Source: Sphingomonas glaciei (lineage in GTDB: Bacteria > Pseudomonadota > Alphaproteobacteria > Sphingomonadales > Sphingomonadaceae). Taken from it: a stretch of 64,000 nt of DNA. How positions within the stretch are numbered: the first letter of the stretch is position 1; every line of letters starts with the position of its first letter. The position numbers and the translations under genes were made by a program. The stretch covers positions 2,513,001-2,577,000 of the forward strand of contig NZ_CP097253.1 of the NCBI RefSeq assembly GCF_023380025.1, read 5' to 3'. Below the pieces are notes generated by a model. It did not search any database and had not been told where the DNA came from. It was given only the letters and a program-made list of their open reading frames with translations. Positions 10,600-28,688 of the stretch are shown piece after piece.

Positions 10600-10869
10600 G
10601 TGAAGAATGAGGAGGACTGGCCCGAGCGGCGTCACCGGCATGACGTCGAAATCGGCGCCGAAGTCCATTATCCCGACGGGCACCAGCGCCAGGTGCTGAT
10701 CTCAAACCTTTCGCTCGACGGCTGTCGTATCCACGGCTGGTTCCGCATCGGCGAGGTGCTGGAATTGACCATCCCCAAGATCGGCCGGGTGCGCGGACAG
10801 GTGCGCTGGGCGCTGGCGGGCAAGGCCGGCATCCGCTTCCTTCCGGCGACCGAAGCCAACGCGGACTAG
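10600..10869 (+). CDS. Small PilZ-domain protein
   Basis: An 89-residue single-domain PilZ protein. I choose the GTG at 10600 because AGAGGA stands seven bases upstream; an ATG at 10555 would add 15 basic residues with no good ribosome site. The NLSLDG motif (N-x-S-x2-G) is present, but the N-terminal Arg cluster reads RRHRHD and does not give a clean RxxxR, so c-di-GMP binding is less certain than for the PilZ protein at 4565. Its stop overlaps the end of the convergent GNAT-like gene by four bases. Confidence 0.7.
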   Translation: MKNEEDWPERRHRHDVEIGAEVHYPDGHQRQVLISNLSLDGCRIHGWFRIGEVLELTIPKIGRVRGQVRWALAGKAGIRFLPATEANAD

Positions 10870-12008
10870 AGCGCCTTTTCGTAGATCCGGTAGATCTTGC
10901 TGAGGTCCGATCCGCGCAGGTCGGCGATCGCCAGCATCCCGCCATTGTCCTCCAGTACCCAGCCGAACTCGCCGTGGCTGGCGCCGTAATTGCCGACCGA
11001 ACTCAGGCGGCAATGTTCGATCATCATGAACGCCAATTGCCCTGCCAGGCGCCCGCCCTGGTGCTTCTTGGCGACGCCCATCAGCGGTACCCGCACCCGC
11101 TGTACCCTCGGCTTGCGCAGACGCCACAACAGCTTGGCCCAGCCGAACGGAAACAGCCTGCCGTCGAGATCGCGGGTCAGTTCGTTGATGTCGGGGAGGG
11201 TGATCATGAAACCGGCCGGCTCGCCGTCGACCTCGGCCACCACCACCAGATCCTCGAAAATGATCGGCTTCAGCTTCTTGCCGGCATAGGCGATCTCGGA
11301 TTCGGTCAGGGGCACGAAGCCCCAATTGTCCGACCAGGCATCGTTGAGGAGGTTGAGAATGATCGCCGCCTCCTCGTCGAAACGCGACTTGTCGACCTCG
11401 CGGATGCGGATGCGGCTGGAGCGATTGCCGGCCTGGATCAGGCGCTGGGCCAGCGGCTCGAGCGGCACGCGGATGTCGAGCGCGTAGCAGTAGAGGTCCT
11501 TGGCCTTGGCATAGCCCGCCGCCTCGACCTGAGCTTCATAGGCCGGGCGGTGATGGCCCATCATCGCGGTCGGCGGGTCGGTGAAACCCTTGATCTCCAA
11601 TCCGGGCTCGTCCCAGATCGACAGGCTGATCGGACCCAGCGCGCGGGTCATCTTGCGCTCGCGCAGCCAGTCCTCGGCAGTGGCGATCAGGGCCGGCCCG
11701 GCTTCCTTTTCGCTGTCGAGCACCTCGAACATGCCCCAATTGCCGGTGCCCGTACCCATATGCTCGAGCACCAACCGGTCGATCTGTGCCGAGATGCGGC
11801 CAACGGGCTTGCCGTCGCGCGTCGCCAGCCACAGCGCGGCCTCGCCATGCTCGAACCACGGATTTTCGCCGGGGGTGAGCAAACCCATGACTTCCGACTT
11901 CAGGGGCGGGACCCAGGCGTGATCGTCCTTGTAGACGTCCCACACGAGGTCGACGAAGCGCTTCTTGTCGGCCTTGGTGGTGACCGGCCGGATGACGAGT
12001 GCGGACAT
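10866..12008 (-). CDS. GNAT-like acyltransferase-fold protein
   Basis: A 380-residue cytosolic protein. A first segment (LATRDGKPVGRISAQID, about residues 62-78) and a second (VVAEVDGEPAGFMITLPD) look like the core strands of GNAT N-acetyltransferase folds, so this is probably a tandem or extended GNAT protein. Acetyl-CoA loop residues are not clear enough to assert activity. It starts nine bases after the HerA-like gene on the same strand, and the two are probably cotranscribed. The substrate is unknown. Confidence 0.65.
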   Translation of the reverse strand: MSALVIRPVTTKADKKRFVDLVWDVYKDDHAWVPPLKSEVMGLLTPGENPWFEHGEAALWLATRDGKPVGRISAQIDRLVLEHMGTGTGNWGMFEVLDSEKEAGPALIATAEDWLRERKMTRALGPISLSIWDEPGLEIKGFTDPPTAMMGHHRPAYEAQVEAAGYAKAKDLYCYALDIRVPLEPLAQRLIQAGNRSSRIRIREVDKSRFDEEAAIILNLLNDAWSDNWGFVPLTESEIAYAGKKLKPIIFEDLVVVAEVDGEPAGFMITLPDINELTRDLDGRLFPFGWAKLLWRLRKPRVQRVRVPLMGVAKKHQGGRLAGQLAFMMIEHCRLSSVGNYGASHGEFGWVLEDNGGMLAIADLRGSDLSKIYRIYEKAL

Positions 12009-20692: not shown

Positions 20693-21529
20693 TCAGGCCG
20701 CTTCACGCTCCGAAGCATGGTTATCGCCTCGCTTGCGCGGATGGCCGGTGGCGACGATGCCGCCCGACAGCTTCTTCACCCACGGATAGCGGGTCGCGAC
20801 TTCCTCGGTGTAGCCGAGGTTGAACACGGTCGGGCTCTTGGCCGGGCGCTCGGGCCGGTCGTAGAAGGTGCCGAGCAGGCGGTCCCAGAAGTAGCTGGTG
20901 ATGCCGTAATTGCCGCTTTCGTCGTGGAAGTGATGCGCCATGTGGCGCTTCTTCATCTCGGCGATCAGCTTCGACTTCGGCTTGTAGGCGAGGTGCTGGA
21001 TGCAGTGGACGAATTCGTACACGCAAGTCGTCAGCAGGCCGGTTGCAAGCGCCGCCGCAGCGCCGCCGACGCCGCCGATCGCATAGCCGACCGGCGCCGT
21101 CACCAGCGCGATGGTCGGAAGCGTGGTGTGGAGCGCGCCGAACAGCACTTCGAGATGGTTCGGGTCCTGGTGATGGTCGTAGTGGATCCGCTTCCAGGTC
21201 GAGGCCAGGAACGGCACCTTGAACATCCAGTTGCTGTGCAGCACCCAGCGGTGCAGGCAGTACCAGACCAGCGGATAGAGGACGACGACGACCGCCGCCG
21301 ACAGGGCGGTCTGAGCCAGGGTAGCGGGATAGCGCAGCCACACGGCCACGCTCACCGCGGTGAGGGCGAGATAGCCGATGATCGCGGGATACTGGAAATA
21401 AGCGACCCACAGGTCCTTGAGGGTCATCCGGTCGAGGTAATGCGACCGCCTCCAGATTCCGGGCTTAACCTTACTGCTCACGTGGCCTGACCTTGTTCGT
21501 GCTTGAAAGCGACTGCCCGCAAGGGACAT
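20693..21529 (-). CDS. Sterol desaturase / fatty acid hydroxylase superfamily protein
   Basis: A membrane-bound di-iron oxygenase of about 278 residues. The eight-His signature is spread over HRWVLH, HYDHHQDPNH, a loop His, and HMAHHFHDE, between four or more membrane helices. I give the start at 21529, where AGGAGG stands 14 bases upstream; 21427 (MTLKDLW) is an alternative. In sphingomonads such enzymes hydroxylate carotenoids, hopanoids or fatty acyl chains. Hydroxylation of a sphingolipid chain is an attractive guess because serine palmitoyltransferase lies 6 kb away, but nothing in the sequence fixes the substrate. Confidence 0.72.
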   Translation of the reverse strand: MSLAGSRFQARTRSGHVSSKVKPGIWRRSHYLDRMTLKDLWVAYFQYPAIIGYLALTAVSVAVWLRYPATLAQTALSAAVVVVLYPLVWYCLHRWVLHSNWMFKVPFLASTWKRIHYDHHQDPNHLEVLFGALHTTLPTIALVTAPVGYAIGGVGGAAAALATGLLTTCVYEFVHCIQHLAYKPKSKLIAEMKKRHMAHHFHDESGNYGITSYFWDRLLGTFYDRPERPAKSPTVFNLGYTEEVATRYPWVKKLSGGIVATGHPRKRGDNHASEREAA

Positions 21530-21584
21530 GCCGACCAGTTTTTCCTCCTGCCCTTTCAATGCGGCGACAATGGGACGAATGGTC

Positions 21585-22265
21585 CTATTGCGGCAGCAGG
21601 GCGAGCAGGTCGTCCGGTGTTCCGGTGGGGATCCGCGTCCCCTTCCAGGTGAATGTTGGTGTTCCGGTGACGCCATTCAAGCGGGCGGTCTGGTCGGCGT
21701 TGGTCACCCACTGGTGATGGGCGCCGCTCGACAGGCAGGCGCCTGCCTGCGTAGGGGAGAGCCCGTGCTTCTGCGCCAGCGGCAGGAGCCCGGAGGCCTT
21801 GGCCACCGCTCCGGCGTAGCTGATCGGGCCGGCCAGCTCGGCTTCGTAGAGCGCGGCGCGCGAGGTTTCATTCTCGTCGGCGGCCTTGAGCGCGGCCTTG
21901 ATCTCGTCCTGCCGGGCCATCAGCGCCTCAATGAAGGCGAGCCGCCGGGCAGGCGCCACGCAGCGGGTCAGGACCGCGGCGGCGCGGTCGTGCGGGAAGA
22001 CCAGGAAGGGCCGCCACGCGAAGCGCAGCTTGCCGGCCTTTACCAGCCCGTCGACCCGGGGGAAGATGGCACCGGCGAATTGGCCGCAGTGGGGGCAGCC
22101 ATAGCTGGCATATTCGGCGAGCAGCGGCGCGCCGGCCTTGCCGAACGTCCAGCCCTCGCCGGTTTCGATCACCGTGACGGGAAGCGCCCTGGCGGCCGGC
22201 TTGGGCGCTGCGGCGGCCACGGGGGCGGCGAGGAAGACGGCGAAACCTGCCAGGAGTGCTTTCAT
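21585..22265 (-). CDS. DsbA-family thiol:disulphide oxidoreductase
   Basis: A periplasmic thioredoxin-fold protein of 226 residues from the ATG at 22265, which begins a clean signal peptide (MKALLAGFAVFLAAPVAAAA). The redox motif is CPHC (YGCPHCGQF), as in DsbA, and a helical insertion and cis-Pro region (TGTPTF) follow. The frame stays open to an ATG at 22307 that overlaps the lptG stop as ATGA, so a start there, coupled to lptG, is also possible. It may introduce disulphides in periplasmic proteins, conceivably including LptD. Confidence 0.83.
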   Translation of the reverse strand: MKALLAGFAVFLAAPVAAAAPKPAARALPVTVIETGEGWTFGKAGAPLLAEYASYGCPHCGQFAGAIFPRVDGLVKAGKLRFAWRPFLVFPHDRAAAVLTRCVAPARRLAFIEALMARQDEIKAALKAADENETSRAALYEAELAGPISYAGAVAKASGLLPLAQKHGLSPTQAGACLSSGAHHQWVTNADQTARLNGVTGTPTFTWKGTRIPTGTPDDLLALLPQ

Positions 22266-22303: not shown

Positions 22304-23401
22304 TCATTCCTCCGACCGGATGAGCACGGTCTCACCGATCAGCAGGAACAGGAGGAACGGCGCCCAGGCGGCAACCAGCGGCGGGTAGGAGCCGATGTTG
22401 CCGAGCGCGACGGCGAAATTGTCGACCACGAAATAGGCAAAGCCGAGCGCCATGCCGACCGCGGCGCGAAGCAGCACCTTGCCCGAGCGCGCGAGGCCGA
22501 ACGCGGCCATGGCTGCGAGGAGTGGCATCAGCACGGTCGACAGCGGCTGCGACAATTTATGGAGGAGGCCGGTCTTGGCCGTGGCGGTATTGACGCCGGC
22601 CTGCTCCATCTCGGCGATATTGTCGCTGAGGGTGGCAAAGTCCTGCGCGTCGGGATCGACCTTGGCGAGGGTGAAGCGCTGCGGCTCGACGCCTTCCATC
22701 ACCCGCAGGGTCGGCCGCTTCAGCACGGCATTCATCGCCGGATCATAGATGCTGACGTCTTCGAGCAGCCAGCCATTGCCGTCGGGGCGGGCGCGCTCGG
22801 CATTGATCAGCCGCGCGACGGTGATGTCCTGCCGCTCGACCAGAAGGAACTTCTGAATCCGGACGCCGGTGCCGCGGCCGGTCACGAGCTGGGCGTGGGC
22901 ATAATCGTCACCGGCGGTGACCCAGATGTCGCTGAGGATTCCGCTGTCGGGCGGCACCGGACGATATTCATTGTCACTCCATGCGCTCAATTGCCGGCTG
23001 CCCTTGACCACAACCAGTTCGTTGAAGGCGAACGACAGGCCGGCGAGCGCGATGCTGGCGCCGATCAGCGGAGTCAGCAGCTGGTGCGCCGACAGGCCCG
23101 CCGCCTTCATCGCCACCACCTCGCTGTTCGAATTGAGCGTGGTGAAGGTGATCAGCGCGCCGAGCAGGAAGGAGAAGGGGAAGGCGAAGGACAGCAACTG
23201 CGGGAAGCGGTAGCCGACATAGCGCCACAGCTCGCTCTCGCCATTGCCGGTCACGGCTAGGATCTTGCCCGATTCCGACAGCAGGTTGAGCATCATCAGC
23301 ACCAGGCTGAGCGCGAGCAGGACCGCCAGGCTGCGCGAGACGTAGAGCCAGACCGTATAGCGGGCGAGCCGCCACGAAGGCACGAAGTTGAGGTTGATCA
23401 T
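22304..23401 (-). CDS. lptG: LPS export ABC transporter permease LptG
   Basis: A 365-residue inner-membrane permease. With LptF and LptB2 it extracts lipopolysaccharide (or glycosphingolipid-type envelope lipid) from the membrane and passes it to LptC/LptA. It has six membrane helices: three at each end around a periplasmic beta-jellyroll. The start at 23401 overlaps the lptF stop by four bases (ATGA), and a long upstream extension of the frame is not real. Many sphingomonads lack normal LPS, so its cargo here is an open point. Confidence 0.92.
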   Translation of the reverse strand: MINLNFVPSWRLARYTVWLYVSRSLAVLLALSLVLMMLNLLSESGKILAVTGNGESELWRYVGYRFPQLLSFAFPFSFLLGALITFTTLNSNSEVVAMKAAGLSAHQLLTPLIGASIALAGLSFAFNELVVVKGSRQLSAWSDNEYRPVPPDSGILSDIWVTAGDDYAHAQLVTGRGTGVRIQKFLLVERQDITVARLINAERARPDGNGWLLEDVSIYDPAMNAVLKRPTLRVMEGVEPQRFTLAKVDPDAQDFATLSDNIAEMEQAGVNTATAKTGLLHKLSQPLSTVLMPLLAAMAAFGLARSGKVLLRAAVGMALGFAYFVVDNFAVALGNIGSYPPLVAAWAPFLLFLLIGETVLIRSEE

Positions 23402-24606
23402 CCCGCGCGGCTCAGGTGGCGGCGGCGGGGATTGGGCAACAGCCGCTTGATGAAGCCCCAAAGCTTGGCCCCACCGCGTTCCAGCGCACCGATCGGCTGG
23501 CCGCCGGGCTTGGTCGCGAGCGTCAGATACATCCACAGGATCAGCCCGGCGAACAGCAGGAAGGGGGCGTACATCACCAATTCGACCGGGAAGTCGCCGC
23601 GCGCACCGGCGTCCTCGGCCCATTGATTGACCTTGTGATAGGCGACCACCATCACGATCCCGATAAAGATTCCGAGGCTCGAACTGGAACGTTTGGGCGG
23701 CACCGCCAGCGCCACCGCCAACATTGGCAGCAAGAGCATCAGGATCACCTCCACCAGCCGGAAGTGGAGGTTGGCCCGGGCGGCGAGATTGGCCTCGCCG
23801 GTCGCTCCGCCGGCATAGCTGGCGCGGACGATCTCGGGCAGGGTCATTTCCTCCGCATCGTTCTGCGCTCGGGCGCGGAAGCTGTCGACGCGGGGCAGCT
23901 TGATCGGCAGGTCGTAGCTCTGGAAGCCGAGCGTGCGCGGGGTGGTGAAGCTGGGGTTCTGCTGGATCAGCCGGCCCTGTTCCAGCCGCAGCAGGATGGT
24001 GTCGGGATCGTCGGTGGCGAGGAACCGGCCGTGCGAGGCGGTGGCGACGATCCCGCCGCCCTTCTGGTCGTCGGCCTGGACGAACAGGCCGTGAAGCTGG
24101 GTCCCGCTCGCCTCGCTGCGGTCGATGCGGATGGTGAAGCGCTTGGACAGGGTGTTGAACTCACCTACCTGCAGGCTGGCGCCGAGTGCGCCCGAGCGGA
24201 GATCGAAGCGCAGCCGTTCGTAGCCGTAATGCGTCCACGGCTGGAGCCAGCCGACCAGGAACAGGTTCAACGCCGCCAACACGATCGCATAGGCCATCGG
24301 CACCCGCAGCAACCGGCCGAAGCTGGTGCCGACCCCGCGCAGGGCGTCAAGCTCGCTCGAGGTGGCAAGGCCGCGGAAGGCAAGCAGGATTCCGAGCAGC
24401 AGCCCGATCGGGATGCCGAGCGCGAAATATTCGGGCAGCAGGTTGGCCAGCATCCGCCATACCACGCTGACCGGACCGCCGAGGTTGATCACGAAGTCGA
24501 CCAGCCGAAGCATCTTGTCGAGCACCAGCAGCATCGCCGCCAGGATCAGCGTGCCGGCAAGCGGAATGGCGATCGCCCTGGCTATGTAACGGTCGATGAG
24601 TGGCAT
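23398..24606 (-). CDS. lptF: LPS export ABC transporter permease LptF
   Basis: A 402-residue permease and partner of LptG. MPLIDRYIARAIAIPLAGTL is a typical N-terminus, with a short GGAAG upstream. It has helices 1-3, a periplasmic jellyroll (about residues 130-270), then helices 4-6. The frame stays open far upstream to 24945, but that part has no membrane or family character and overlaps the divergent lipid kinase gene. It heads a minus-strand run lptF-lptG-DsbA-like-hydroxylase-ubiA-pmbA with gaps of 60 bases or less, likely one operon. Confidence 0.92.
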   Translation of the reverse strand: MPLIDRYIARAIAIPLAGTLILAAMLLVLDKMLRLVDFVINLGGPVSVVWRMLANLLPEYFALGIPIGLLLGILLAFRGLATSSELDALRGVGTSFGRLLRVPMAYAIVLAALNLFLVGWLQPWTHYGYERLRFDLRSGALGASLQVGEFNTLSKRFTIRIDRSEASGTQLHGLFVQADDQKGGGIVATASHGRFLATDDPDTILLRLEQGRLIQQNPSFTTPRTLGFQSYDLPIKLPRVDSFRARAQNDAEEMTLPEIVRASYAGGATGEANLAARANLHFRLVEVILMLLLPMLAVALAVPPKRSSSSLGIFIGIVMVVAYHKVNQWAEDAGARGDFPVELVMYAPFLLFAGLILWMYLTLATKPGGQPIGALERGGAKLWGFIKRLLPNPRRRHLSRAG

Positions 24607-24844
24607 GAGCTTCCGGGTCTGCCCCTCAACACCATGATTTGGCCGCAAAGCAAGCGCAACGACACAATTGTTCGTGTCCCCGGTCTGGCGTTCGCTGCCT
24701 GAAGCGTAGCTGACGAAGGGTAGGGCGAGCGACCTGGATGCCGAGGAAAGTGACAGAGATGCGCAGCCTTCCCCATACAGCCCTGCCGCGAGAGGCAGCT
24801 GCGTTGGCCCGCGCGCAAGCATCCGCCGGAGGCTCCGGCCGCTG
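24607..24844. promoter_or_regulatory. Divergent region lptF / lipid kinase
   Basis: This 238-base gap holds promoters for two divergent envelope-lipid transcription units. A GACAC/GTGTC inverted repeat (24661-24665 with 24674-24678) surrounds ACAATTGT (24664-24671), a plausible operator. I could not assign -35/-10 boxes with confidence. Confidence 0.35.
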
Positions 24845-25813
24845 ATGGGCAAGGCTCGGATCGCACTTCTCAGCAACCCCCGCTCCACTGGCAACATCTC
24901 GCAACTCCCCCGCATCAGGGCGTTCTGCGCCGAGCATCCGGACATCTTCCATTACGAGGTCGAACGGGCCGACCAGGTCGGCGAGGCACTCAAGACCATC
25001 GCGCTGGTCCGGCCCAAGGTGCTGGTCATCAACGGCGGCGACGGGACCGTCCAGGCGGCGCTGACCGAACTGGTCAACGGCAGCCACTTCGGCGACGACC
25101 TGCCGCCGGTCGCGGTCCTGCCCAACGGCAAGACTAACCTCATCGCGCTGGACCTCGGCGCGCAGGGCGACCCGATCGAAGCGCTGCGCCGCCTGCACGA
25201 GCTCGCGTCGGGCGATCTCGAACAACATCTTGTCGCCCGGGAGCTGATCGCGCTGACCAGCAAGAAGCTGCCGATTCCGGCGATCGGCATGTTTCTCGGC
25301 GGCGCGGGCTTGGCCGACACGATGCTCTACTGCCGCGAGAAGATCTATCCGCTCGGCCTGCCCAACGGGGTCAGCCACGTGATCGCGGCGATGGCGGTGC
25401 TTCTGGCGCTGATCGGGCTGACCGGCCGGTTCCTGCCCGCAAGCCCCGAGCATATCGTGGTCAAGGTACGCCGCCACGGGACCCTGCGCGGCCGCTTCGG
25501 CTTGCTGGCGGTGACAACGCTCGAACGGCTGCTGCTCGGCAGCGAGGTCAAGACGGCGCGCACCGGATCGCTCAAGCTTCTGGCGGTCGAGCATCGCTCG
25601 AGCTCGATGCTGCGCGGGCTGTTCGCCGCCATCGGGGGCAAGCTCGGCCACAAGAAGCTGGCCGGTGTCCACCTCGAGGAAGCCGACGAAATCTCGATCG
25701 AGGGCGACCGCTCGTCAGTGTTCCTCGACGGCGAGCTGTTCAAGGCCGGGATCGGCGATCCGATCATGCTGACCCGCGCCGCGCCCTTGTCCTTTGTCCG
25801 GCTCGCTGCCTGA
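24845..25813 (+). CDS. DAGK-domain lipid kinase
   Basis: A 322-residue protein with the diacylglycerol kinase catalytic fold: NPRSTGN at 11-17 and the nucleotide loop GGDGT at 64-68, then a C-terminal beta domain (VHLEEADEISIEGDRSSVFLDGELF) like YegS/DgkB. It phosphorylates a lipid hydroxyl with ATP at the membrane face. Diacylglycerol is the default substrate. However, Caulobacter CpgB, also of this fold, is a ceramide kinase, and here the gene lies beside serine palmitoyltransferase, so ceramide is a serious alternative. It is followed four bases later by the Tam41-like gene, and the two should be cotranscribed. Confidence 0.82.
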   Translation: MGKARIALLSNPRSTGNISQLPRIRAFCAEHPDIFHYEVERADQVGEALKTIALVRPKVLVINGGDGTVQAALTELVNGSHFGDDLPPVAVLPNGKTNLIALDLGAQGDPIEALRRLHELASGDLEQHLVARELIALTSKKLPIPAIGMFLGGAGLADTMLYCREKIYPLGLPNGVSHVIAAMAVLLALIGLTGRFLPASPEHIVVKVRRHGTLRGRFGLLAVTTLERLLLGSEVKTARTGSLKLLAVEHRSSSMLRGLFAAIGGKLGHKKLAGVHLEEADEISIEGDRSSVFLDGELFKAGIGDPIMLTRAAPLSFVRLAA

Positions 25814-25817
25814 GCCT

Positions 25818-26690
25818 ATGGCCGAGCTTCGCGGTCTGGTAGCGGAGGAACTCGGCCGTGCCGTCGATCCGCGGGTCGCCGCCATGGCCGCGGGGATCGC
25901 CGCCGCGCATGGCGCGGCCTCGCGGGCCGTGCTGTTCTACGGGTCGTGCCTGCGCGACGTCGCGCTCGAAGGCGCAATGCTCGATTTCTACCTGATCGTT
26001 TCCGACTATCGCCAGGCCTATCCGGCGCGCTGGATGGCGGCCGCCAACCGGCTGATTCCGCCCAACGTCTTTCCCTTCGCGCAGGGCGAGCTGATCGCCA
26101 AATATGCGGTGCTGAGCGAGGCCGACTTCCACCGCCTCAACGGGCCCGAGACCCGCAGCGTGTCGGTGTGGGCTCGGTTCGCCCAGCCGAGCCGGCTGGT
26201 GTGGGTCGCGGACGAGGCCGCGCGCGAACGGGCGATCGAGGCGGTGTCGCGCGCCGCGCCGACCCTGCTCAGCGCGGCGCTGAGCGCGGTGCCCAACGAC
26301 CAGCCGCCGCTCGACCTGTGGAAGGCCGCCTTTGCGCTGACCTATTCCGCCGAGCTGCGCGCGGAGAAGAAAGAGCGCGGGGTCAATGTCGTCGACCAGG
26401 ACCCGGCGCGCTACCTGCGGTTCTTCGGGCCGGCGATGGCGGCGGCGCGGGCGTGCGGCAAGCGCTGCGGCGGGTCGTGGGGCCGTCGCCGCCTAGAGGG
26501 AAAATTGCTGTCGGTCGCCCGGCTGGCCAAGGCCAGCGCCACCTTTGCCGGCGGCGCCGACTATATCGTGTGGAAGATCAACCGCCACGCGGGCACGAAG
26601 ATCGAGCTCAGCGCCTGGCAGAAGAAGCATCCGCTGGTGACCGCGGTGACCCTGCTGCCGCGGCTGATCCGCAGCGGCGCGATCCGCTAG
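25818..26690 (+). CDS. Tam41-like CTP:phospholipid cytidylyltransferase homologue
   Basis: A 290-residue protein from the ATG at 25818, four bases after the lipid kinase stop. From memory of the Tam41/Mmp37 family (mitochondrial CDP-diacylglycerol synthase), I see the nucleotidyltransferase GS motif (FYGSCLRD) followed by LDFYLIV carrying an acidic residue, KYAVLS, a VWARFAQPSRLVWV strand-turn, the LWKAAFALTYSAELR helix, and a basic C-terminal amphipathic end. All are in the family's order. It should activate a phosphorylated lipid with CTP at the membrane surface. Pairing with a lipid kinase makes phosphatidate, or ceramide phosphate, the likely substrate. Assigned by eye only. Confidence 0.6.
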   Translation: MAELRGLVAEELGRAVDPRVAAMAAGIAAAHGAASRAVLFYGSCLRDVALEGAMLDFYLIVSDYRQAYPARWMAAANRLIPPNVFPFAQGELIAKYAVLSEADFHRLNGPETRSVSVWARFAQPSRLVWVADEAARERAIEAVSRAAPTLLSAALSAVPNDQPPLDLWKAAFALTYSAELRAEKKERGVNVVDQDPARYLRFFGPAMAAARACGKRCGGSWGRRRLEGKLLSVARLAKASATFAGGADYIVWKINRHAGTKIELSAWQKKHPLVTAVTLLPRLIRSGAIR

Positions 26691-26699
26691 GCGCCGGGC

Positions 26700-27086
26700 T
26701 TAATCCGCCGCGAGCAGGAAGTTGATACGCGCGCTGGCGATCGGCGTGGTCCGATCCTTTTGCCAGGCGAACGCCTCGACATTGGCGATCCGCGCCCCCA
26801 GCCGCTCGATGGTGGCGGCGGCAAAGGTGTCGCGGTCCCGCCCGCCAAGCAGGTAATCGACCGTCACCGAGATGGGCTTGGGGCTGAGCTCGCGCCCCTC
26901 GAGCGCCCGCGACAGCTCGCCATAAGCCGCAAATTCCAGCAGGCCGGCGATTGCGCCGCCGTGAAGATAGCCAGGGCGACCGACTACGTCGTCGTGGAAC
27001 GGCATGACGAACAGGCTTTGCCCGTCATCGCCCCGCTCGACACGCAGCTGCAGCAATTCGGCATAAGGCGGGAGGCTGTCGTTCAT
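26700..27086 (-). CDS. PaaI-family hotdog thioesterase
   Basis: A 128-residue single hotdog domain. HGGAIAGLLEFAAYGEL is the central-helix motif of the PaaI/YigI acyl-CoA thioesterases, which hydrolyse acyl-CoA or acyl-ACP. The start at 27086 is chosen because the upstream frame (to 27341) runs antisense to the ACP gene. It is on the opposite strand between the Tam41-like gene and ACP-spt. A link to acyl supply for sphingolipids is possible but not shown. Confidence 0.8.
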   Translation of the reverse strand: MNDSLPPYAELLQLRVERGDDGQSLFVMPFHDDVVGRPGYLHGGAIAGLLEFAAYGELSRALEGRELSPKPISVTVDYLLGGRDRDTFAAATIERLGARIANVEAFAWQKDRTTPIASARINFLLAAD

Positions 27087-27165
27087 CGCCGCAGCCCTAG
27101 CGTGGCCGTGCCCGGATTTCGCCCCCTTGTTGCGCTTAGAGGGGCAAAACCCTAGCGAGATTGCC

Positions 27166-27414
27166 ATGACCGACCGCGACGAACGAAAGACACGGATCCA
27201 CCGCCTCATCGGCGACTTCAACAAGAAGGGCATTGAGGTCGGGGAAGACACGCGCTTCGCCCAGGACCTCGAATGGGACAGCCTGACGGTGATGGATTTC
27301 GTCGCCGCGGTCGAGGACGAGTTCGACATCATCATCACCATGAACCGCGCGGCCGAGATCGAGACCGTGGGGACGTTGATCGACGCAGTCGGCGAGCTCG
27401 AGGGACAGGCATGA
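27166..27414 (+). CDS. Acyl carrier protein dedicated to serine palmitoyltransferase
   Basis: An 82-residue ACP. Ser39 in EWDSLTVMDFV is the phosphopantetheine site (DSL motif), and the surrounding acidic helix II fits the fold. It is not the housekeeping AcpP, since it is coupled by a four-base overlap to the serine palmitoyltransferase gene. In Sphingomonas and Caulobacter the enzyme uses acyl-ACP from such a partner. The start at 27166 is the last ATG before the conserved domain. Confidence 0.88.
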   Translation: MTDRDERKTRIHRLIGDFNKKGIEVGEDTRFAQDLEWDSLTVMDFVAAVEDEFDIIITMNRAAEIETVGTLIDAVGELEGQA

Positions 27415-28688
27415 CCGACCCCGGGATCGCCATGGTCGCGGAGCCGGGAAAGGCCGCGCCTGCCAACATGAAGTCAGGGGGTTGCACCGCCCCCGACCTG
27501 TTCGACAAGTTCCAGCCGCTGATCGACCAGCGCGAGGCCTTGCTGTCGACCGGGCTGACCGACCCGTTCAACCTCGTGATGGAGCGGGTCGAGAGCCCAA
27601 CCGTCGCGATCTGCAACGGCAAGCGGACGATCCTGCTCGGCACCTACAATTACATGGGCCAGACGTTCGACCCGCAGGTGCTTGCGGCGGGTCACAAGGC
27701 GCTCGACGAATATGGCGCGGGAACGACCGGCAGCCGGGTGCTCAACGGCACCTACCAGGGCCACCGCGAGTGCGAGGAAGCGCTCAAACGCTTCTACGGC
27801 ATGGACCATGCGATGGTCTTCTCGACCGGCTACCAGGCCAATCTCGGGATCATCTCCACGATCGCTGGGAAGGACGATTACGTCATCCTCGACATCGACA
27901 GCCATGCCTCGATCTACGACGGCTGCGCGCTGGGCAATGCCCAGATCGTCGCCTTCCGCCACAATGACGTCGAAGCGCTCGAAAAGCGGCTGAAGCGGCT
28001 TCCGGCCGATGCGGGCAAGCTGGTGGTGCTGGAAGGCGTCTACTCGATGCTCGGCGACACCGCGCCGCTGAAGGAGATGGTCGCCATCTCCAAGGCAGCG
28101 GGCGCGATGGTGCTGGTCGACGAGGCGCATTCGATGGGCTTCATCGGCCCAAATGGCCGCGGCGTGGCCGAGGACCAGGGCGTGCTCGACGATGTCGATT
28201 TCGTCATCGGGACCTTCTCCAAGTCGGTCGGCACTGTCGGCGGCTTTTGCGTGTCGAATCATCCCAAGTTCGAGATTCTGCGGCTGGTTTGCCGCCCGTA
28301 CGTCTTCACCGCCTCGCTTCCGCCGAGCGTGGTCGCCACCGCTGCGACCTCGATCGACCTGCTGCGCGGCGCGGCCGACAAGCGGGCGCACCTGTGGGCC
28401 AACAGCCGCCGGCTGCACGGCGGGCTGAAGGAACTCGGCTTCACGCTGGGCACCGAGACGCCGCAGTCGGCGATCATCGCGGTGATCATGCCCGACCTCG
28501 AGCGTGGTGCTGCGATGTGGGAAGCGCTGCTTCACGAAGGGCTGTACGTGAACCTCGCCCGTCCGCCGGCGACCCCGGCCGGCATGACGCTGCTGCGCTG
28601 TTCGCTGTGCGCGCTTCACAGCGAGGAGCAGGTTGGCGAGATCCTCGGCATGTTCGAGGCCGCGGGCAACCGCGTCGGGGTTATCTAG
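27411..28688 (+). CDS. spt: Serine palmitoyltransferase
   Basis: A 425-residue soluble PLP enzyme of the alpha-oxoamine synthase family. It condenses serine with an acyl thioester to give 3-ketosphinganine, the first step of sphingolipid synthesis. Lys271 in GTFSKSVG binds PLP, His165 (DIDSHASIYD) stacks on it, and Asp237/His240 (VDEAHSMG) complete the site. Each is offset by a constant six residues from the well-studied S. paucimobilis enzyme of 420 residues. Only ACP-spt are here; ketosphinganine reductase and ceramide synthase are not in the window. The stop overlaps the end of the convergent protease gene by eight bases. Confidence 0.95.
   Translation: MTDPGIAMVAEPGKAAPANMKSGGCTAPDLFDKFQPLIDQREALLSTGLTDPFNLVMERVESPTVAICNGKRTILLGTYNYMGQTFDPQVLAAGHKALDEYGAGTTGSRVLNGTYQGHRECEEALKRFYGMDHAMVFSTGYQANLGIISTIAGKDDYVILDIDSHASIYDGCALGNAQIVAFRHNDVEALEKRLKRLPADAGKLVVLEGVYSMLGDTAPLKEMVAISKAAGAMVLVDEAHSMGFIGPNGRGVAEDQGVLDDVDFVIGTFSKSVGTVGGFCVSNHPKFEILRLVCRPYVFTASLPPSVVATAATSIDLLRGAADKRAHLWANSRRLHGGLKELGFTLGTETPQSAIIAVIMPDLERGAAMWEALLHEGLYVNLARPPATPAGMTLLRCSLCALHSEEQVGEILGMFEAAGNRVGVI

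Follow-up and report, generated by a model that had tools for sequence, protein, structure and literature searches.

In Caulobacter, the sphingolipid genes are described as a cluster of aasR, cerR, acpR and spt (CC_1165-CC_1162), cpgC (CC_1161), cpgB (CC_1160), cpgA (CC_1159), a phosphoesterase gene (CC_1158), lptF2 and lptG2 (CC_1156 and CC_1155) and cerS (CC_1154) (PMC11324152). CpgB has been assayed as a ceramide kinase (PMC10331486; PMC12275187). Mutants are described in which CC_1160 and CC_1161 are needed for ceramide phosphoglycerate (CPG), with CC_1159 acting later, and CpgC is needed to convert ceramide-1-phosphate into CPG (PMC11324152). CC_1161 carries an InterPro domain suggesting a cytidine diphosphate (CDP)-diacylglycerol (DAG) synthase, and the same paper proposes that it might form nucleoside diphosphate (NDP)-activated ceramide and that glycerate is then added by a further enzyme still to be found (PMC11324152, 2024). 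The mechanism of CpgC is still termed unidentified in later texts (PMC12275187, 2025; preprint PMC13228409, 2026). Here we analyzed a kinase-nucleotidyltransferase gene pair of Sphingomonas glaciei that resembles cpgB and cpgC. The pair lies in a 64,000-nucleotide stretch (contig NZ_CP097253.1, positions 2,513,001 to 2,577,000), hereafter the window, of a genome that is a single contig of 2.88 Mb.

The CpgB-CpgC pair is real, conserved and biochemically interesting. Probably, CpgB makes ceramide-1-phosphate, and CpgC with cytidine triphosphate (CTP) turns ceramide-1-phosphate into CDP-ceramide. In the proposed route, Spt with AcpR and AasR, CerS and CerR would produce ceramide, which CpgB would phosphorylate with ATP to ceramide-1-phosphate. 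CpgC would then combine ceramide-1-phosphate with CTP at the inner membrane, giving CDP-ceramide and pyrophosphate. A transferase would exchange cytidine monophosphate for the headgroup (glycerate in Caulobacter) to give CPG, and CpgA would extend CPG to the di-phosphoglycerate lipid. This chemistry would mirror that of CDP-DAG, with a kinase, a cytidylyltransferase and a phosphotransferase. CTP and ceramide-1-phosphate are the predicted substrates of CpgC, and S. glaciei itself would be expected to make the phosphosphingolipid.

Results

A conserved kinase-nucleotidyltransferase pair

The two genes are as follows.

24845-25813, plus strand: CpgB-type lipid (ceramide) kinase with a diacylglycerol kinase (DAGK) fold, 322 amino acids, assigned from PF00781, GGDGT at residues 64-68 and its pairing with cpgC
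25818-26690, plus strand: CpgC-type Tam41-fold nucleotidyltransferase, 290 amino acids (P0001), a probable CTP:ceramide-1-phosphate cytidylyltransferase from its fold and gene order

The kinase shows two features expected of a CpgB, the GGDGT motif and a match to PF00781 (DAGK_cat; 49.5 bits, E 4.1e-13, cut-off 23.6). The NCBIfam lipid-kinase models all scored at most 28.1 bits, far under their cut-offs, which fits the description of the Caulobacter ceramide kinase as evolutionarily distinct (PMC10331486). A CpgB-type ceramide kinase, predicted from family and gene order, is the best explanation of this gene. The ATG of cpgC lies four bases past the kinase stop, and cpgC adjoins the kinase within an spt-linked cluster, the placement expected of a CpgC. 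An earlier sequence-only reading had given the kinase, its motif, these coordinates and the four-base gap, and the open reading frames (ORFs) and the Pfam match bore it out.

The same order, with cpgA, was found in Dongia. In Dongia and near relatives (L103, L105), the cluster runs through a CC_1153-like nucleotidyltransferase gene, cerS, a hydroxylase gene, a CDP-alcohol phosphotransferase gene, lptG, lptF, a phosphoesterase gene, cpgA, cpgB, cpgC, a small extra gene, spt, acpR, cerR and aasR. This order agrees with that of Caulobacter except for CC_1157 and the additional genes in Dongia. Because of this agreement and the published description, we named the pair CpgB and CpgC and infer orthology with the Caulobacter proteins, which were matched by order and description alone; a scan for named relatives brought up loci of Dongia, Sphingomonas and further organisms but no Caulobacter record.

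The pairing goes beyond chance. Of 149 related genomes, 117 carry a relative of P0001 and 32 do not. A same-strand kinase gene lies directly upstream of cpgC in all 70 relative loci taken from those 117, from whose kinases (L001-L070) the kinase profile was itself built, in 26 of 29 class loci, in 41 of 49 named loci and at L154; the locus sets overlap, and some organisms are counted twice (Dongia is in both). At L117, L140 and L141 a kinase match is nearby but outside the position limits, and L109 and L147 begin at contig ends. By eye, an exonuclease III-like gene stands upstream of cpgC in the kinase's place at L133 and L149. The Clostridia loci L150-L153, which gave no CpgC-profile match and look like an unrelated enzyme, were dropped.

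Fold and family of CpgC

P0001 matches the Tam41 fold (FbTam41, PDB 7ecd) over residues 14-243 at 16% identity, with its last 47 residues outside the match. It has the Tam41 architecture, a nucleotidyltransferase domain followed by a winged helix, and the CpgC family shows the Tam41-type K, R and Y..[DE].R blocks. PF01148 (CTP_transf_1, the CdsA family) is absent from P0001, and no NCBIfam label was obtained for it. Searches of PDB sequences with P0001, A1 or A3 did not find Tam41; L154 alone reached SpTam41 (E 1.6), and a profile weighted to the group of L154 reached SpTam41 at E 0.0013. A scan of 44 relatives of P0001 gave scattered weak domain matches and none to PF09139, the Tam41 family, whereas some CpgC relatives, only part of the family, pass the PF09139 cut-off of 24 bits. 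Membership in the Tam41 branch of nucleotidyltransferases is the best explanation of P0001. The resemblance to Tam41 seen in the sequence-only reading held in the comparison with FbTam41 and, for P0001 itself, found no counterpart in Pfam.

The C-terminus of CpgC is conserved among relatives, and its basic-looking character is consistent with membrane binding. This bears on the proposal that the substrate of CpgC is the headgroup or some other soluble phosphate and not the lipid, with a different enzyme joining the activated product to ceramide-1-phosphate. We consider this very improbable: the C-terminus looks like one suited to a membrane, the substrate described for Tam41 is a phospholipid, and CDP-glycerate is described as the product of CpgD, an unrelated COG1213 enzyme (PMC12275187).

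Co-occurrence of CpgC with Spt

In a sample of 385 alphaproteobacterial genomes, the CpgC profile matched 42, Spt 48 and CpgA 24. Spt was counted at 430 bits or more, at a gap in the score list, which leaves out a fragment in G393 (362.7 bits, no CpgC match); CpgA was counted at 363 bits or more, including one partial match (G228) and excluding the paralogues of 7 genomes, which scored 185-229 bits. CpgC and Spt occurred together in 41 genomes, Spt without CpgC in 7 (two of them in the family of S. glaciei), and neither in 336. The two genes are at most 3 kb apart on one contig in 28 of the 41 genomes and not so in 13. Fisher tests of co-occurrence take no account of relatedness; the 42 CpgC genomes fall into 22 families. 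All 24 CpgA genomes carry CpgC, and 18 CpgC genomes have no CpgA. This nesting of CpgA within CpgC within Spt fits the pathway order drawn from the Caulobacter mutants. The co-occurrence with spt that the sequence-only reading had asked for was thus found in 41 of the 42 CpgC genomes.

The same distribution bears on the possibility, raised in that reading, that CpgC is a genuine Tam41 and provides a second CDP-DAG synthase, acting on phosphatidate after the kinase has phosphorylated diacylglycerol. The fold and motifs agree with this, but CpgC tracks Spt, and in Caulobacter the corresponding kinase acts on ceramide and the corresponding cpgC is required for CPG. The presence of CdsA, the genome's single PF01148 match (614401-614841, 154 bits), away from cpgB and cpgC, also speaks against a second route to CDP-DAG. 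We regard this alternative as improbable.

Neighboring genes

Along the plus strand, the order in the window is lptG and lptF (minus), cpgB and cpgC (plus), a small 4HBT thioesterase gene (minus), and acpR and spt (plus). The features around the pair are listed below; the acpR, spt and thioesterase starts were read by eye from the sequence.

10866-12008, minus strand: CerS-type N-acyltransferase, counterpart of CC_1154 (45% identity to the cluster-linked L056 protein, E 6e-112; PF00583, 26.6 bits)
20693-21676, minus strand: fatty acid hydroxylase (PF04116, 77.1 bits), with a homologue in the Dongia sphingolipid cluster
22304-23401, minus strand: LptG-type permease (PF03739, 228.4 bits), start inferred within ORF 22304-23623
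23398-24606, minus strand: LptF-type permease, divergent from cpgB (PF03739, 210.7 bits), start inferred within ORF 23398-24945
About 26700-27086, minus strand: 4HBT-type thioesterase between cpgC and acpR (PF13622, 28.9 bits; PF03061, 25.9 bits)
27166-27414, plus strand: AcpR, acyl carrier protein of sphingolipid synthesis (PF00550, 37.1 bits, scan on 27127-27411)
27411-28688, plus strand: Spt, serine palmitoyltransferase (NF047603, 787.6 bits, cut-off 670, scan on 27414-28688)

The acpR ATG lies 476 bases past the end of cpgC at 26690, and the spt ATG overlaps the acpR stop. The sequence-only reading had put an acyl carrier protein-spt unit about 475 bases downstream, and the NF047603 score confirmed Spt. 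The thioesterase in the cpgC-acpR gap, which that reading had passed over, is probably not a pathway member. The PF04116 protein near lptG is a candidate ceramide hydroxylase: it shares 55% identity over 247 residues with the Dongia cluster protein, and homologues occur in many of the loci examined, with 47-58% identity to the Dongia protein outside Dongia's own genus.

Among the 40 longer relative stretches (L031-L070), lptF or lptG was present in 28 and spt in 26. Nine of the other stretches (L032, L033, L035 and L039-L044) belong to a divergent CpgB-CpgC subgroup of the same family, 33-36% identical to P0001, which retains the kinase pair and has no spt or lptFG in the stretches examined. 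Near the pair at L039, a member of this subgroup, lie cpgA and a CC_1153-like gene. Besides flanking genes, families conserved in at least 8 of the 40 loci were lptF, lptG, spt, acpR, cerR, aasR and cerS, together with the hydroxylase gene and genes for a MatE-like flippase and a DUF2141 protein. The DUF2141 gene lies between lptF and cpgB (L051:7810-8382, plus strand, and similar) and was grouped in 32 of 81 loci, in a grouping that included some false overlapping ORFs. The window has no room for it, since just 238 bases separate the inferred lptF start from cpgB.

The rest of the pathway and its phosphotransferases

AasR (54% identity, E 2.6e-193) and CerR (41% identity, E 3.5e-60) are present in the S. 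glaciei genome, where the AasR, CerR and CerS genes are scattered, matching published reports for Sphingomonadales. CpgA, at 2343759-2344835 of the genome (G000), is 41% identical to Dongia CpgA and has an intact CDP-alcohol motif, as read from the sequence. After cpgA come a nucleotidyltransferase gene resembling the Dongia cerS neighbor (33% identity, E 6e-36), which by position and family would be CC_1153-like, and a HAD-IB phosphatase gene. In this region, outside the window (L158:7288-9863), cpgA, a MobA-like nucleotidyltransferase gene and the HAD-IB phosphatase gene are consecutive and divergently oriented to an MlaE-like permease gene, which is followed by an ABC ATPase gene and an MlaD-like gene (the last three by eye).

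Three proteins of the genome matched PF01066 at E ≤ 1: PgsA, which passes the TIGR00560 cut-off; a PssA-like protein, whose reading may lack its start (TIGR00473, 92.1 bits against a cut-off of 107); and CpgA. Exactly two PF01066 matches, presumably PgsA and PssA, were obtained in seven of the 18 CpgC genomes without CpgA, although such a count can miss divergent enzymes. These seven (G174, G306, G307, G315, G403, G411 and G472) carry a listed completeness of 100%. It follows that the user of CDP-ceramide there would be a housekeeping enzyme, a protein that belongs to another family or has diverged too far for the PF01066 model, or CpgC.

If it were CpgC itself, the enzyme would be a bifunctional CPG synthase that activates ceramide-1-phosphate with CTP and transfers it directly to glycerate or a related acceptor, with no free CDP-ceramide and no separate transferase. 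The two-protein genomes agree with this, as does the finding that no further phosphotransferase family was apparent among the conserved neighbors of the 40 loci, whose flanking genes are not all annotated. CdsA, a CDP-DAG synthase, is described with a second transfer activity (PMC7018664), and the step from ceramide-1-phosphate to CPG in Caulobacter is assigned to CpgC alone (PMC12275187). However, Tam41 is described solely as a maker of CDP-DAG, and the second step could fall to a transferase outside PF01066, to one too divergent or to housekeeping PssA or PgsA. We consider a bifunctional CpgC unlikely.

Returning to a separate transferase, CpgA paralogues (185-229 bits) occur in 7 of the 385 genomes, and genus g86, to which the Dongia loci belong, accounts for four of these. 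At L105:3192-4400 (minus strand), within the sphingolipid cluster, a paralogue 29-32% identical to two CpgA proteins separates lptG from the hydroxylase gene. The in-cluster paralogue, a second CDP-alcohol phosphotransferase, was also seen between lptG and cerS in L101, L103, L104, L106 and L108. It is a good candidate for the missing CPG-forming transferase.

Discussion

Fold, co-occurrence with Spt and the Caulobacter counterparts make a kinase step followed by CTP activation to CDP-ceramide, as the sequence-only reading had proposed, the best-supported explanation of the pair. That reading had also called it a new step and had named the absence of a PF09139 match beforehand as refuting. NDP-activated ceramide had already been proposed for the Caulobacter enzyme (PMC11324152), so the idea of CDP-activated ceramide is in print; the present analysis adds evidence from the fold, the nested distribution of the genes and a more sharply posed question, namely which enzyme uses CDP-ceramide. 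As to PF09139, neither the protein nor the whole S. glaciei genome gave a match.

Several observations weigh against CDP-ceramide formation by CpgC. P0001 had no Pfam match at E ≤ 1 and hence none to PF09139, which also found nothing in the control genomes, Caulobacter vibrioides included. In 150 genomes of the phylum, PF09139 gave one weak match below its cut-off, a CpgC beside a kinase, though several of these genomes carry CpgC. The identity between Tam41 and P0001 is just 16%, and a shared Tam41 fold does not give the substrate. One genome (G481) has CpgC and no Spt, and no recognizable kinase lies beside cpgC in the stretches examined at L092, L093, L098, L129, L133 and L149. No dedicated CDP-ceramide user was seen among the conserved neighbors. 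The term CDP-ceramide appeared in no paper of the open-access collection searched, outside which most subscription journals lie, and no assay of its formation was found there.

Nevertheless, one testable reaction, that of CTP with ceramide-1-phosphate, is suggested by a Tam41-fold family that accompanies Spt in 41 of 42 genomes and usually has a kinase partner. If CpgC does form CDP-ceramide, bacteria would have a CDP-ceramide branch parallel to that of CDP-DAG, which would bear on how anionic sphingolipids able to replace lipopolysaccharide are built and on polymyxin sensitivity. The S. glaciei genome, with three CDP-alcohol phosphotransferases found overall, would be a simple place to seek the missing transferase.

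A wider proposal, which we put forward as tentative and somewhat doubtful, is that CDP-ceramide serves as a general activated intermediate for sphingolipids in bacteria and corresponds in this to CDP-DAG. In bacteria that retain CpgB and CpgC but have just two CDP-alcohol phosphotransferases and no CpgA, housekeeping PssA or PgsA would use it; the products would be ceramide phosphoserine/phosphoethanolamine or ceramide phosphoglycerol. The user in Dongia would be the dedicated in-cluster CpgA paralogue. The mitochondrial Tam41 fold would then serve two lipid nucleotides.

Compared with known systems, P0001 shares with the Tam41/Mmp37 CDP-DAG synthases (FbTam41, 7ecd; SpTam41, 6ig2/6ig4) the fold and the K, R and Y..[DE].R blocks, but it lies below Pfam detection, and the genomic partners of CpgC are sphingolipid genes. 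CpgD of Caulobacter (CCNA_01210, CC_1152), a phosphoglycerate cytidylyltransferase (PMC12275187), has in common with the proposed CpgC a CTP-using step of the same lipid pathway; unlike CpgC, it belongs to COG1213, and its product is not a lipid nucleotide. The kinase resembles Caulobacter crescentus CpgB (CCNA_01218, CC_1160), to which it was likened by gene order and description, in being a DAGK-fold enzyme that adjoins CpgC near Spt at the same cluster position, whereas in S. glaciei cpgA lies elsewhere in the genome. Finally, P0001 occupies the same slot between cpgB and spt as C. crescentus CpgC (CCNA_01219, CC_1161).

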